Below are positions 7,498 to 14,645 of a stretch of DNA of 64,000 nt, piece after piece (positions within the stretch are counted from its first letter, which is position 1; every line of letters starts with the position of its first letter). This stretch comes from Nitrosopumilus sp. LS_AOA (GTDB taxonomy: Archaea > Thermoproteota > Nitrososphaeria > Nitrososphaerales > Nitrosopumilaceae), in NCBI GenBank assembly GCA_001543015.1, contig LFLC01000038.1:1-64000 (forward strand), read 5' to 3'. The translations under genes were made by a program, and so were the position numbers. The notes beneath the pieces were generated by a model, which did not search any database, had not been told where the DNA came from, and saw only the letters and a list, made by a program, of their open reading frames with translations.

Positions 7498-8400
7498 CTA
7501 TTTTTCTGCAACTACAATATAACGGACATATTCATCATTCAGAGAATTAAATACAAAAGAGTATTTTGCAGGACTTGCAGTTATGAATGGTGGAATATTT
7601 TCAGGTTCAGAACCAGTCTTAAATTCAAAATAAATCTCATAGTTTTCATCTTCTATCCCATCTAGACAGTCAACATCAAGTGAGATCTCCCACAATACTT
7701 TCTTTGTGTTATAATCTTGAATCTCCATATTATATCCTCTACAAGAATCTCCAAAATCTTTTATTATAATTTTAAAGTCGAACTCTTCTCCTACTTCATT
7801 AAAATACCACAAGTTTTCTGCTCCTATCTTAAATGAATATGGTGGTGTATTGACTATTCTAACTGGGGGTGGTTCACTTATTACAACTGGAAAGTCATCA
7901 GCTCGTCTTTCTTTAAAATCTTTAATTGAATCATAAATTACTTTATGAGAATATCCAAATTTCTCCATTTCACTTCTAATTATTTCTGCAATCTCACCTA
8001 ATGAGAATTTTCCATACTCTACTATTGTAGCTGGTCCATCAACTTCTGCTTCTTCTTCCATCATGTGCTTATATTCACCCAGATCTTCTTCAATTGTTTG
8101 TACAAAAATCTCAGGATGAGATATTAGAAAGTCATACGTTAGTGGAATAATTGGTTCTATCTTTAATTTTTCAACAAGAATCTCCCATCCTAATTTTTGT
8201 GCTGTTGTTTCTTTAACGCAAGCAAACTTGTAATTATCGCGCAATACTTGAACGTGTTCTGAATTATTGCATTCTGGAGCAAGTTCTTGTAATGTAGGAA
8301 GTACTGGTAGAGTAGAGAATCCCAAAGGAATTGATCCTGAAAATAGAATTACTGCAAATATTACAGCTAAAAATGTAAATTTATTTTTGTGATAAATCAT
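7498..8400 (-). CDS. Secreted hypothetical protein coupled to the S-layer-like gene
   Basis: The start is placed at ATG 8400 rather than 8457 because it overlaps the upstream stop as ATGA (8397-8400) and begins a clean signal peptide (KNKFTFLAVIFAVILFSGSIPLGFS). That gives 300 residues. Near the N-terminus VLRDNYKFACVKETTAQKLGW resembles a short motif I know from several thaumarchaeal secreted proteins. The C-terminal half looks beta-rich. Function unknown. Coupling to the preceding gene suggests a shared extracellular role. Confidence 0.8.
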   Translation of the reverse strand: MIYHKNKFTFLAVIFAVILFSGSIPLGFSTLPVLPTLQELAPECNNSEHVQVLRDNYKFACVKETTAQKLGWEILVEKLKIEPIIPLTYDFLISHPEIFVQTIEEDLGEYKHMMEEEAEVDGPATIVEYGKFSLGEIAEIIRSEMEKFGYSHKVIYDSIKDFKERRADDFPVVISEPPPVRIVNTPPYSFKIGAENLWYFNEVGEEFDFKIIIKDFGDSCRGYNMEIQDYNTKKVLWEISLDVDCLDGIEDENYEIYFEFKTGSEPENIPPFITASPAKYSFVFNSLNDEYVRYIVVAEK

Positions 8401-11400
8401 GATGCAGGTGTCATAGATACTGGAGTTGTAGATACCTGAATCAAACCATTCATCCAAGGATGCACCATACAGAAATAATTAATGTCACCAACAGTGTCTG
8501 GATAAAACTCAAAAGAATTTCCAGTCATTAACAATCCAGTATCAAATTCGCCAGTTGGTCCGTCTATAGCTGTTCCTGCCGAAAATGTATGTGCTGCTGA
8601 ATCTGTATTTGAGAATATTATTTTTCCACCAAGATCAACTGTTGCGATTCCTGGAACATAGCATCCGTATTTAATATTCACACAATCATCAGTGGAGCTA
8701 CCAGAACCTGTATCTGGTGTAATTGTAATTGTTTCAGCATTTGGAACTACTGTATTTGTGAATGCTCCTCTACCAATTTCATTAACTGCTGCAACCCTAA
8801 ATTTGTACTGTTCACCATTTGTTAGTCCTGTTATCACAGATGTAATTGAATTTGATTTACCATCAGAGAATGTGGTGAAAGGCAAAGTGGAATTCTTGTA
8901 TCGTATGATATAATCAATAATAGGTGAACCACCATCATCAGTAGGGGCACTCCATGATAAAGTGGCATTAGTGTTACCAACAACTATGAGGTTAGTTGGA
9001 GAGTTTGGAATAGTCATAGTAGGTGTTGCAGTTATTTTATTAACATTACCAGTACCAATCAAATTTTTGGCATATACCTTAAACTGGTATTTTATACCAT
9101 TCTCAAGTCCGGTTATAACAAATGTGGATGATGATGCATTAAGAGTAAATCTAGTGTATGAGTCATCTGTGATCTTTTTGTATCGTATAACATAATCAGT
9201 AATTGGGTAACCACCATCATCAGTAGGGGCACTCCATGATAAAGTAACTTTACCATTGCCCGGTATTGCTAAAAGATTAGTTGGACTCTCAGAAACAGTC
9301 GCATTTAATGAAAAATTTGCAATATTAATAGTATTTCCATATTGAGCAGTTACAGTATACTTTCCAATGGAACTCCAATGATTTCCAGCAGTAATAATTT
9401 GTTCTAAAAATAAACCCATCGCATTTGGATAAATTTCACCTATTTTGACAACATTGTCATAGGGATCTTGAATTAGATATGTTACTGGGAGTTGTAATGA
9501 GTTGAATGTAGAAATGGTTTGTTGTTTACCATTATCAGATCCAACAACAATATTTGTTGAAATACTAGGATGTAAAACAGCTGGATTATCTACGGATTCC
9601 CAGAAAAATGCAGTTGCAGTATAATTACCATTGTGAGTTGGAATCCATGATAATGCTGGAGTAAATGATTGACCACGTGATAATGAACCGGTAATCCATG
9701 TTAGTGAATCCAATACACGGTTATCATCTTGAATCTGTATCAAGTATGCAAATGATTGTTCTTTATCCAGACTATTTACCAAGTCAGTGCTGATTTGTAC
9801 CTGTTGACCAACTTTAACAATATCTAAACTGTTACCAAATGCATTAACGAGTTTCAAGTTAGATGGGGTGAGATTCCAAACAGTATCAATTGTACCAGGC
9901 AATCCAGTACCGTTGAGAGTTATCACATCACGAAGATGTGCATCATTAATTTCAATATTAAGGGTAGTTGGTAAAATTTTAATTCCAGATATTCTTGCTG
10001 CATCACTGACTTCAATGACTTCACCTGATGCATCTCTAAAGTCAACATAGTTGACGTCAATATCATGGCCTGTAGATGATTCAGGAGTTGCTGAATCGGT
10101 TCTACACCAGTTATTTGGAATTTGGAAATCTCCTGTGAATATACCGGTTGTTTGTCCTGTTTCAACTAGAATAAATCCAGTTGCACCAAGTCCAGAATCA
10201 GTTGCTGCTGCACCAGTTGTGGTACAGGATCCTTGGGAGGTTGTCCATCTTATGTCATCAATTGTGACATCTAATAGTCTACCAAGTTGATCACCATTAC
10301 TCAATGCGATAGAGAAACCACCAGAGGTGGCGTTTCCGGTACCAACTGCATCTTGGTTTTGATCTTCAATAGCAGTCACTACTGTATAGAGATCTAAGAG
10401 ATGTGAATCCGTGTTAAGATCCAAATCTTCAAGTGTAATTGTTACAGTATCTGTAATCTCATAGTTACTTTTATCAAATGATACAAAACCAGAATGACTT
10501 GGGGCGTCTTCTTGATCAGTAATCGGTGTGGATATACCATCCGCACCCAAGTCAAGATAAGTAACTCGTGGCGCATCTTCATCAGTTAAATTTTCAATGA
10601 CGATGAAACTTGGGTCATCATCAATAGTATTCAACATTGTATATGTCGTAGGATCCAAAATATTGATCTGATTAATCATTTTGTATTCCAAACTACCTAC
10701 AAAGATTCCTGTGTCATCACCAGTTTCTTCTAACTCAAATCGAATAATTTGATTAGAAATTCTATCACTAGAAGAAATACCATCATTTAGAAACCCAAAG
10801 GAAAAAAAGTCAGTAACTATAGGTAACACAGTATTTGCAAGTATTAGTGATGGACCACCACCAGTATTAATCGTAAAAATATACTGAACCTTTGATGATT
10901 TATTCATTGCAAAAATATCATCACCTGTAGCATTTGCAATATCTACAAGATCCTGTATTCTAGTAATATTACTTGCAAGTCTTGCAGTATTTGTTCCATC
11001 AGTAATGTCTACATCAAAGGAATTGATTGTAACACCCAAACTATTTTGAATGGAACCAATATCAAAATTAAGCAAGTTAAATCCTTTAAAGTTTGGACCA
11101 GGTTGGTTTATTGATTGGTATAAATCTGCAAATGTATTATTTAGTGTTAAAACAAGTGTATCTTTGTTTTGGAAAGAAATATCAGAACTGGTTGTAAGCA
11201 TTGCACGATCACTGAATTTTTGTACTTTAACATTTAATGAACTGCCAGCAAGTTGTGCTGTATTTAATGATTTTAGAGTAAATGGATTTCCAGTTTGCAA
11301 AGAGGGAATCAATTCAACGGTTGGATCATCTAAATCTAGATCCTCATCGACTTTACTGTTCTGGTTGAGATCTTTATCAGTTAAGACTACAGGAATCTCT

Positions 11401-12755
11401 TCACCAGAGTTCCATTCATCATCAATTGGTTGTATGTCAATAGTACCAAAATCAAATCCTACAAGAACTGTAACGGGTGATTCATTGTAATCAATAGTTG
11501 CAGATGTACCTCTTTTGGCATCACTTGTAATTAAGAGAACAGATTCATCGGATTCATCATATGTCCCAAAGATTCCACTGTTTGGTCCCATTTCAGTAAT
11601 TGTAACTGGTTGAGAATTGATACCCAAACCTACTGCAGTGTCAGATGTTGCACACGTTGATGCATCTTGAGGCATACTACAAGTAATTACAGTGTCTAAA
11701 GTATCTCGTATAGTAACAACATTAGTACCAACGCTTTGTTGATCAACATTTAGTATTAAGACACCATTATCTTCAACCATCATATTTGGTAAATTATTAG
11801 AAATATCTATAATTCCATTTGCAACAGCTGCGCCTGCTTCTGCACCATTTTCATCAAAGACTTGATAGTTTGTAGTCAATCCATCTGTAGAGTTTGTTCC
11901 AAACGTCCAAGAATCTTCGTCTGTTGGATCAATGTTTAACCAAAGATCTGTTATTGTAACGTGAACTTGTGCATCATGAGGATATATTGCTCTATCTAAA
12001 TCTGCTCTGACAAATTGATCAACAGTATCAAAAGTTAATGTGGTTGATTGAACACCACCACCTTTGTTATAATCTATGCTAACATTGCCTGTTGGGTTTA
12101 ATTGGTAAAGTTGAATGAAAGGCCAAACATCAGTATCACTAATACCAATTTGACCAATAGAATCACCAGGTAATACAGTATTTGGATCAATTGATTCTCG
12201 AACCACATTCATTGCACCAGTGACACTTTGAGGATCAGCAATGCATTGAGATGTTATGCGAGAACCAGTAGAAGTACCATTTTGACCTAAACCAGGTGCA
12301 CTAATAGGAATTGCAATACCTGCAGTATCAGAAACATCAACACCAATTGTGGTATTTGTATCAGTACCAGGTGCACAAAGTGTACCAAAGTCTAATCCCT
12401 GACCAATTATACCACTAGATGCAGCAGTATAATCTGCAATTGATGCTTGAGTTTTATCTGCAAAGTAACCATACCAGTTACCATCTACACCTTGAACCAT
12501 TCTCAGGATCTTTCCATTTATTGTAACGTCGGGTTCACCTTGTGATTTATCTGTATTGCCAACATAACTATCAATTACAACTACTTCAATGACCTGAGGT
12601 CCGGACATATAGTTATCAAACTGTGAGTTTTCAGCAGATACAAAGAGATTAGCATTGGCTGCATGTGCATAATCAATAAAATTATCTACTGAAAAAAAAG
12701 TGGATGAGAATAATAAAACTAAAGTGAAAACCACAAATGTGTATCTATTAATCAC
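8397..12755 (-). CDS. S-layer-like protein with two FN3 domains and a C-terminal cupredoxin
   Basis: The track starts at ATG 12806, but GTG 12755 gives a compact signal peptide (INRYTFVVFTLVLLFSSTFF...) about 25 nt below TTAAGTAAA, so I prefer it (1452 residues). The first ~1000 residues resemble the thaumarchaeal S-layer protein from its mature N-terminus (NLFVSAENSQFDNY...GPQVIEVVV) and repeated acidic, Thr-rich beta domains. Then follow two FN3 domains (~1155-1345; LSWSAPTDDGG in both) and a cupredoxin with the complete copper set: His in AAHTF and Cys, His, Met in CMVHPWM. It probably forms or decorates the cell envelope and binds copper. Stop overlaps the next start (ATGA). Whether it is the main S-layer subunit or a paralogue cannot be told from this window. 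Confidence 0.85.
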   Translation of the reverse strand: MINRYTFVVFTLVLLFSSTFFSVDNFIDYAHAANANLFVSAENSQFDNYMSGPQVIEVVVIDSYVGNTDKSQGEPDVTINGKILRMVQGVDGNWYGYFADKTQASIADYTAASSGIIGQGLDFGTLCAPGTDTNTTIGVDVSDTAGIAIPISAPGLGQNGTSTGSRITSQCIADPQSVTGAMNVVRESIDPNTVLPGDSIGQIGISDTDVWPFIQLYQLNPTGNVSIDYNKGGGVQSTTLTFDTVDQFVRADLDRAIYPHDAQVHVTITDLWLNIDPTDEDSWTFGTNSTDGLTTNYQVFDENGAEAGAAVANGIIDISNNLPNMMVEDNGVLILNVDQQSVGTNVVTIRDTLDTVITCSMPQDASTCATSDTAVGLGINSQPVTITEMGPNSGIFGTYDESDESVLLITSDAKRGTSATIDYNESPVTVLVGFDFGTIDIQPIDDEWNSGEEIPVVLTDKDLNQNSKVDEDLDLDDPTVELIPSLQTGNPFTLKSLNTAQLAGSSLNVKVQKFSDRAMLTTSSDISFQNKDTLVLTLNNTFADLYQSINQPGPNFKGFNLLNFDIGSIQNSLGVTINSFDVDITDGTNTARLASNITRIQDLVDIANATGDDIFAMNKSSKVQYIFTINTGGGPSLILANTVLPIVTDFFSFGFLNDGISSSDRISNQIIRFELEETGDDTGIFVGSLEYKMINQINILDPTTYTMLNTIDDDPSFIVIENLTDEDAPRVTYLDLGADGISTPITDQEDAPSHSGFVSFDKSNYEITDTVTITLEDLDLNTDSHLLDLYTVVTAIEDQNQDAVGTGNATSGGFSIALSNGDQLGRLLDVTIDDIRWTTSQGSCTTTGAAATDSGLGATGFILVETGQTTGIFTGDFQIPNNWCRTDSATPESSTGHDIDVNYVDFRDASGEVIEVSDAARISGIKILPTTLNIEINDAHLRDVITLNGTGLPGTIDTVWNLTPSNLKLVNAFGNSLDIVKVGQQVQISTDLVNSLDKEQSFAYLIQIQDDNRVLDSLTWITGSLSRGQSFTPALSWIPTHNGNYTATAFFWESVDNPAVLHPSISTNIVVGSDNGKQQTISTFNSLQLPVTYLIQDPYDNVVKIGEIYPNAMGLFLEQIITAGNHWSSIGKYTVTAQYGNTINIANFSLNATVSESPTNLLAIPGNGKVTLSWSAPTDDGGYPITDYVIRYKKITDDSYTRFTLNASSSTFVITGLENGIKYQFKVYAKNLIGTGNVNKITATPTMTIPNSPTNLIVVGNTNATLSWSAPTDDGGSPIIDYIIRYKNSTLPFTTFSDGKSNSITSVITGLTNGEQYKFRVAAVNEIGRGAFTNTVVPNAETITITPDTGSGSSTDDCVNIKYGCYVPGIATVDLGGKIIFSNTDSAAHTFSAGTAIDGPTGEFDTGLLMTGNSFEFYPDTVGDINYFCMVHPWMNGLIQVSTTPVSMTPAS

Positions 12756-12925
12756 TATTATCAAAAACGATAATTGTTTACTTAAGGAAACCTCATCATA
12801 AAACATATCAGGATAAGTTTTACTTTAATAAAAAAATCACAACAAAAATATCAACTACAATTTGTCACAGTGAAAAAATTCTGGTTTGTACTTTATCGTT
12901 GGCAAATTTAGATTATCTAGTGTAG
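12752..12925. promoter_or_regulatory. Upstream control block B, duplicate of 7195-7360
   Basis: It shares with block A the run cttaagga.a.ctcatcataaaac.tatca, the TTATC.AAA.C/TGATAAT segment around the start, and a distal gtttgtacttt...ggcaaatttaga segment. The inverted repeat is degraded here (CTCATCAT against AGGATAAG). The conserved TTAAGTAAA is the likely TATA element for the GTG 12755 start. Common ancestry suggests common regulation of both secreted-protein operons. Confidence 0.5.
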
Positions 12926-13568: not shown

Positions 13569-14645
13569 TTGACTATATCAAAAGAATATCTTGAAAAATC
13601 AAAAATAAAATTACCAATCATATCTTTTGTAATTGCATTAATTGGTTCAACGCTGTCTATGTGGGGTGCAAGTTGGGATATTACATCACATTTACTTAGA
13701 ATACCTGAGACATTTTTCACAGCATCTCATGGTATTTTGTATTTAGGTGTGGGAATATGTCTAATCAGTGCAGTCTTAGGTTTAGTGTTATTTCTAAGCA
13801 AAAAAGAGATTAGAGAAAAATCTTTTGGCCTAGGTATCAAACTCATTATTTTTGGGGCAGTATTACAAATAATCGCAGGTCCGGGAGATTTTTTCTGGCA
13901 TGAATTATTTGGAATTGATGGTTTACTCAGTCCAACTCACATTACACTAGCTTTAGGAATAATGATTGTTACAATTGGGGCAGTAATTGGATTTGCCAGA
14001 ATACATTTTCATCTAACTGAGAAAAGTAAATTTCTAGTTTACATTTTACCCACATCCTTTGGAATTTTATGGTTCAGTGTTATGTGGTTTGTATTTTTCT
14101 TTGTGTTACCAATTTCAGATGGAGATACACATAATTTTAATCCCAATCCAAATGTCGCAATAATTCTAAGTTTCATCTTTATTCCATTTGTGTTTTCTCT
14201 CGTATTTTGGTCTGCATTTAAAACTCTCAGACGGTTTGGGGCAGCTAGTATGGCAATGTTTGTGTTTGTTATAATGAATATAACATCAAACATACTTACT
14301 TCTGAAAATCTGTTTTTTTATCTACCATGGTTTATCATCCCCATAATCAGTACAATAATTGCAGAATATGTTCTTAGTAACAAAAACAATTCCAAAGTAC
14401 TTCAAAAATATTCAGATAAAATTTCAGGGGCAATATTAGGTTCAATGTTTTTCATGTTTTGTTTTCCCATGTTAGCGATGACTTTTTTAGAACCTTATTT
14501 GTTTAATGATGTTTTTTCATATGATGTTTTGCCAAATTCAGCAGAAACAATATCACAGATATGGATGATGACAATTATTCCAGGAGCTATCTCAGGAGTA
14601 TTTGGAATGGTATTTGCTTCTAAATGGCTAAAATTTCAATCTTAA
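13569..14645 (+). CDS. Polytopic membrane protein with two AmoC/PmoC-like D-x3-H-x12-H motifs
   Basis: 358 residues with about nine or ten hydrophobic segments; start TTG 13569. Two copies of the same spacing pattern are visible: D37-H41-H54 (SWDITSH...FFTASHG) and D107-H111-H124 (GDFFWHE...LLSPTHI), exactly 70 residues apart, each between the end of one membrane segment and the start of the next. The spacing D+4 and +13 equals that of the PmoC metal ligands Asp156, His160 and His173 of Methylococcus, and the local words (WD...H, FT.SH, SPTH) recall AmoC. The rest does not look like AmoC, so I infer a metal- or heme-binding membrane protein of unknown function. It stands alone on the plus strand between minus-strand genes and upstream of the PLD-like gene (25-nt gap, probable operon). 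Confidence 0.85.
   Translation: MTISKEYLEKSKIKLPIISFVIALIGSTLSMWGASWDITSHLLRIPETFFTASHGILYLGVGICLISAVLGLVLFLSKKEIREKSFGLGIKLIIFGAVLQIIAGPGDFFWHELFGIDGLLSPTHITLALGIMIVTIGAVIGFARIHFHLTEKSKFLVYILPTSFGILWFSVMWFVFFFVLPISDGDTHNFNPNPNVAIILSFIFIPFVFSLVFWSAFKTLRRFGAASMAMFVFVIMNITSNILTSENLFFYLPWFIIPIISTIIAEYVLSNKNNSKVLQKYSDKISGAILGSMFFMFCFPMLAMTFLEPYLFNDVFSYDVLPNSAETISQIWMMTIIPGAISGVFGMVFASKWLKFQS

Follow-up and report, generated by a model that had tools for sequence, protein, structure and literature searches.

A stand-alone membrane protein family from archaea and actinobacteria with paired Asp-His-His motifs, related by sequence to the core of PmoC and AmoC

What is a protein that carries two metal motifs of the PmoC/AmoC kind in a genome that already encodes its own AmoC, and what might it do there? 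This question is raised by an open reading frame (ORF) in the 64,000-nucleotide stretch of Nitrosopumilus sp. LS_AOA DNA that we analysed (contig LFLC01000038.1, positions 1 to 64,000; hereafter the window). The ORF and its parts are as follows.

13569 to 14645, plus strand: ORF of 358 aa, a stand-alone PmoC/AmoC-related polytopic membrane protein (sequence, homologues)
13569 to 14123, plus strand: N-terminal domain, residues 1-185, five predicted helices (AF2, profile matches, structural alignment)
13602 to 13808, plus strand: internal repeat 1, residues 12-80 (half-versus-half hhalign)
13677 to 13730, plus strand: putative site 1, D37-x3-H41-x12-H54, counterpart of CuC (PmoC D156/H160/H173) (sequence)
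13812 to 14018, plus strand: internal repeat 2, residues 82-150 (half-versus-half hhalign)
13887 to 13940, plus strand: putative site 2, D107-x3-H111-x12-H124, counterpart of CuD (PmoC N227/H231/H245), with Asp in place of Asn (sequence)
14124 to 14642, plus strand: C-terminal membrane domain, residues 186-358, no known family (Pfam search, predicted helices)

Paired motifs and the family that carries them

The ORF starts with TTG, the sole common start codon after the preceding stop and ahead of the conserved region. Both motif copies reported in a preliminary description of this DNA are present and are offset by exactly 70 residues. Shuffling the protein 20,000 times produced at least one copy in 0.26% of the shuffles and two copies in none. 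The same description placed the motifs at loop-helix junctions, in agreement with the predicted secondary structure: in both copies, the Asp and first His end a helix and the second His begins the next. No family in Pfam or NCBIfam matched the protein at its curated cut-off.

Ligand conservation was assessed in 57 non-redundant archaeal homologues sharing <75% identity with each other. The preliminary description had staked its proposal on homologues keeping the six putative ligands, and indeed all six are among the invariant columns (W36, D37, H41, F49, H54, Y58 and G60; G96, D107, H111, G115, D117, H124 and G130). Both motifs were found within the searched range in 56 of the 57, one of which has an extra residue before the last His; the six positions occur with the motif spacing of the window protein in 55 of 57. 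E47 is near-invariant. One archaeal member (L027, G051:C265) has x13 in its second site, as do the actinobacterial members and bacterial PmoC, and is a possible bridge sequence.

Relatives are spread across the order of the host, often with several per genome. The archaeal forms comprise proteins of ~360 aa, in at least two subfamilies, and a short form of ~200 aa that lacks the C-terminal membrane domain. The best 80 of 183 relatives on genome contigs were all archaeal by name, and nearly all of these were named Nitrososphaeria or Thaumarchaeota. Three homologues are split into two ORFs each (L059, 8001-9065; L076 and L077, 8001-8970; 179+131 aa; 245+75 aa), by frameshift, decay or assembly error. 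A short paralogue of 197 aa with both sites (L031/L155, G000:C35, about 206.7-207.3 kb) is part of a conserved block of genes; genes for terminal oxidase subunits I and II and a cupredoxin-like gene lie a few kb away.

The suggestion that the protein belongs to a wider unnamed family with bacterial members was borne out on actinobacterial plasmids of Streptomyces, Mycolicibacterium, Leifsonia and Rubrobacter. Bacteria were sampled via plasmid records, so that the bacterial range is an underestimate; viral contigs and phages yielded no relatives. These unnamed hypothetical proteins (e.g., WP_212728630.1 and WP_138230750.1) carry W-D-x3-H-x12-H and D-x2-W-H-x13-H, 70-71 residues apart. Compared to the window protein, they keep the R-D of AmoC, PmoC and HmoC (XmoC) and have the x13 loop, and they end in a predicted outside domain. 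This domain follows an H-D-P-G-Q-G segment and has weak FixH/YtkA similarity (L114, 3947-5380; L115, 6968-8413; L132-L134). The Rubrobacter gene (L116, around 7010) is annotated from 7306 only, which leaves the part with the first motif outside the annotation.

Relation to the PmoC/AmoC core

PmoC binds copper at CuC (D156, H160, H173) and at CuD (N227, H231, H245) (PMC12576850); these sites have the same shape and are separated by about 71 residues. The organism's own AmoC, encoded on a different contig from the window gene, likewise has D-x3-H-x12-H and N-x3-H-x12-H, 72 residues apart. The window protein was at first taken for an internally duplicated relative of the AmoC metal-site hairpin. 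Its internal duplication and its relation to AmoC held; the idea of an extra second copy did not, since PmoC/AmoC itself carries two such sites, and the match therefore spans the whole four-helix core, with residues ~3-154 as its counterpart.

A profile of the archaeal family searched against 177,635 PDB sequences gave three matches up to E 10, all of them AmoC (5.4e-4 to 6e-3). Adding actinobacterial rows to the profile brought all 14 AmoC/PmoC sequences to the top (6e-5 to 8e-3), followed by the best unrelated match at only 0.12; a deeper archaeal-only profile of the domain again ranked AmoC first, more weakly (0.012 to 0.042). The HMM-HMM comparison proposed in the preliminary description gave E-values of about 1e-7 to 1e-9 (hhalign against seven AmoC/PmoC/HmoC sequences: 1.3e-7, 1.3e-9 and 5.5e-8). 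Scores of 60 and 75 compared with maxima of 19.7 and 24.5 in column shuffles (100 each) and with 22 and 19 for reversed profiles, and the signal survived masking of all six ligand columns (38 and 42). Moreover, the matches were reciprocal within the host's own genome: the family profile retrieved the protein itself, the short paralogue and then AmoC (E 1.2e-8), and an AmoC/PmoC profile retrieved AmoC and then the window protein alone (E 3.0e-4). On the strength of the profile ranking, of hhalign with its controls and of these reciprocal matches, we take homology of the family to the four-helix core of PmoC/AmoC to be established at the level of sequence.

The family shares with XmoC, the C subunit of copper membrane monooxygenases (PF04896, TIGR03078), the four-helix core and the order and near-identical spacing of the ligand sets (70 residues in the window protein, compared with 66-77 among its homologues and 71-73 for XmoC). 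Other shared features are an acid at +10, an F-T pair preceding the second His and a P preceding the last. The window protein is nonetheless not an AmoC, because it falls below the curated cut-offs and outside the XmoC clade. Indeed, it has no match to PF04896 or TIGR03078 at their cut-offs, a Mycolicibacterium member reached E 0.034 at best against the AmoC/PmoC family model, and a tree with long branches placed XmoC and the family on separate sides (support, 100/98). Unlike AmoC/PmoC, the family has a visible internal repeat and no PmoA/PmoB partners were seen for it; the window protein further differs by its additional C-terminal membrane domain. The CuD set, N-x3-H-x12/13-H, keeps its position and its His residues, but its Asn is invariantly Asp in the family.

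That the two putative metal-site sets arose by internal duplication of a D-x3-H-x12-H hairpin was shown by aligning the halves of the family profile with each other: 69 columns aligned ungapped at E 7e-11, with a score of 52.3 compared with at most 23.2 in 100 column shuffles. The same comparison on AmoC/PmoC, for which only seven sequences were used, found no repeat (score, 8.9). We infer that the family retains the older state and that CuC and CuD would be duplicates that diverged in the enzymes.

Gene neighbourhoods and distribution

The window gene has no clear copper context. It is flanked by housekeeping genes and by the divergent gene of a large FN3 protein whose tail is cupredoxin-like. 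This 1469-aa FN3-domain protein (8397-12806, minus strand), whose C-terminal stretch resembles a plastocyanin-type copper site, is separated from the window gene by a 70-aa ORF. Several actinobacterial members sit in copper-resistance islands. The Streptomyces mirabilis member has a cupredoxin, an HMA-domain protein and a P-type ATPase nearby; that of Streptomyces sp. F2 has a multicopper oxidase and a cupredoxin; and that of Leifsonia has a pair of P-type ATPases, a four-helix copper protein and a metal-sensitive regulator. Copper ties are weaker at the two Mycolicibacterium loci (BlaI/MecI/CopY-type regulators, for example), and the neighbours of the Rubrobacter gene have none.

In most loci of one archaeal subfamily, the gene immediately upstream codes for a protein of ~193 aa that has a single N-terminal anchor and an outside domain (5' of the family gene in L088, L090, L092-L095, L097-L102, L104, L106-L108 and L110-L112). 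This protein has a conserved H-Y/F-P..G..D-x-Q-x-E near its C-terminus, belongs to no Pfam family and had no match in the PDB. It is a probable partner subunit of that subfamily. A relation to AmoB was considered and rejected, with a score (14.4) below those of the best shuffles. Neither amoA nor amoB was found beside the window gene or among the inspected neighbour clusters; archaeal amo genes are often dispersed.

In a sample of 101 genomes across the phylum, the family was present in 13 of 14 genomes with AmoC and in none of the 87 others. A strict tie to ammonia oxidation was rejected in a denser sample of the order (250 genomes, 161 with the family and 156 with AmoC), which holds exceptions of both kinds. 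At least seven genomes (G044, G052, G189, G194, G223, G226 and G234) have the family without detected AmoC, and several near-complete genomes with AmoC lack the family. The association thus partly reflects shared ancestry. The passages identified in the main text of the published study of copper limitation in N. viennensis name no such gene.

Orientation and possible functions

The AF2 model has a mean pLDDT of 87.7 over the whole protein and 93.3 over residues 1-185. Mean numbers of Lys plus Arg were 2.1 at the N-terminus and 3.5 and 2.2 in loops 2 and 4, whereas the two site loops averaged 0.8 and 0.05. By the positive-inside rule, these charges would place the site loops outside (pseudoperiplasmic), with the N-terminus inside together with loops 2 and 4. 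All four conserved His residues lie on the predicted outer membrane face.

On balance, and with modest confidence, we favour the reading that the window protein is an outward-facing, stand-alone membrane copper protein with two Asp-His-His sites that serves copper handling rather than oxygenation. Two putative copper sites would lie side by side at the outer end of the helix bundle, where proteins of the window type might bind copper and then relay, buffer or oxidise it outside the cell. Such handling could serve copper-based electron carriers in ammonia-oxidising archaea and copper tolerance in actinobacteria.

A one-subunit copper monooxygenase or oxidase, in which the PmoC core by itself would activate O2 at one of the two sites for an unknown substrate, possibly with a secreted partner anchored beside it, appears unlikely, although it has points in its favour. 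The active site of pMMO is now placed at CuD of PmoC (PMC11194816), and the family keeps both site positions; the invariant D117 and near-invariant E47 align with invariant acids of XmoC; and the ~193-aa protein is placed as a partner subunit would be. However, that partner has no detectable relation to AmoB, and no catabolic gene context was seen around the family genes. Furthermore, an Asn at CuD favours Cu(I) and a carboxylate favours Cu(II) (PMC11194816), so that the Asp of the family would favour Cu(II), which counts against an oxygenase of the pMMO kind. The phenylalanine cage of CuD is also incomplete: as read from the alignment, its positions are Y58, L120 and L127 in the window protein, and the first of them is Tyr in archaeal AmoC too. 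With no PmoA/PmoB partner seen, Asp in place of the catalytic Asn and the cage not kept, the window protein is probably not a monooxygenase.

Less likely still is a protein that transports or senses a different metal ion (zinc, iron or manganese, for instance) by means of the two sites. An Asp-His-His set can accommodate several metals, genes for a cation diffusion facilitator and for a regulator of the ArsR/SmtB type are also present in the Leifsonia island, and a TetR-like gene lies 3' of several Nitrososphaeraceae members. Against this reading, copper is the metal bound at these positions in the closest relatives, and the island genes are mostly copper genes.

The predicted structure bears on the quite improbable reading of a bis-histidine heme protein of the cytochrome b561/STEAP kind, in which heme would be ligated by H54 on helix 2 and H124 on helix 4. 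With VIA-align, the best match was cytochrome b561 (Z 11.9, 3.5 A over 164 residues), followed by Dcytb, and STEAP was among the matches. Helical bundles can, however, reach such scores without relation, and no b561 sequence appeared in any PDB profile search up to E 10. Only the general bundle shape is alike: the ligand layout differs, the four His residues share one predicted membrane face instead of being spread over both, as expected for b561 heme ligands, and the two invariant Asp residues are not explained by heme ligation. In the same analysis, residues 3-154 aligned with PmoC 121-275 (7s4h_C) and AmoC 101-254 (9cl6_C) in register over 150 residues, at a Z of 8.3 that unrelated bundles equal or exceed; the end offsets of 118 and 121 agree with those of the PmoC ligands (119 to 121). 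The predicted structure is compatible with the PmoC core and is not discriminating.

Convergence of a helical hairpin on a common metal motif, for which one might cite the identity of only about 18% with PmoC/AmoC and the Foldseek searches of the PDB (nothing at E <= 0.001 for the full-length model or the domain alone), is scarcely credible given the signal that survives ligand masking, the PDB-wide ranking with reciprocal genome matches, and shared non-ligand positions such as F13/T14, the acid at +10 and the R-D at +9/+10 common to actinobacterial members and XmoC.

Returning to the copper protein that we favour, a tentative scheme of its history, to which we give somewhat less credence than to the copper-handling role itself, would make the family a non-monooxygenase stock from which subunit C descended, with CuC and CuD as the paired products of duplicating one Asp-His-His copper hairpin. 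Oxygenation might then have come later, through the change of Asp to Asn and the joining of PmoA/PmoB, and some members may still be one-subunit copper oxidases.

Our literature search for PmoC/AmoC relatives or PmoC-like proteins, with preprints and most subscription journals outside its scope, returned no earlier description. Ammonia-oxidising archaea, about whose copper handling little is known, often carry several copies of the family. Members without evident PmoA or PmoB would offer a small, separable scaffold for measuring what the PmoC metal sites do by themselves, a role left contested by long work on the intact enzymes. In a published phylogeny of the copper membrane monooxygenases (CuMMO), archaeal AMO was taken as the "logical outgroup" by distance (PMC6215863). 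The family is a possible true outgroup for CuMMO, would offer a way to trace how CuC and CuD arose and could illuminate the origin of the world's methane- and ammonia-oxidising enzymes.
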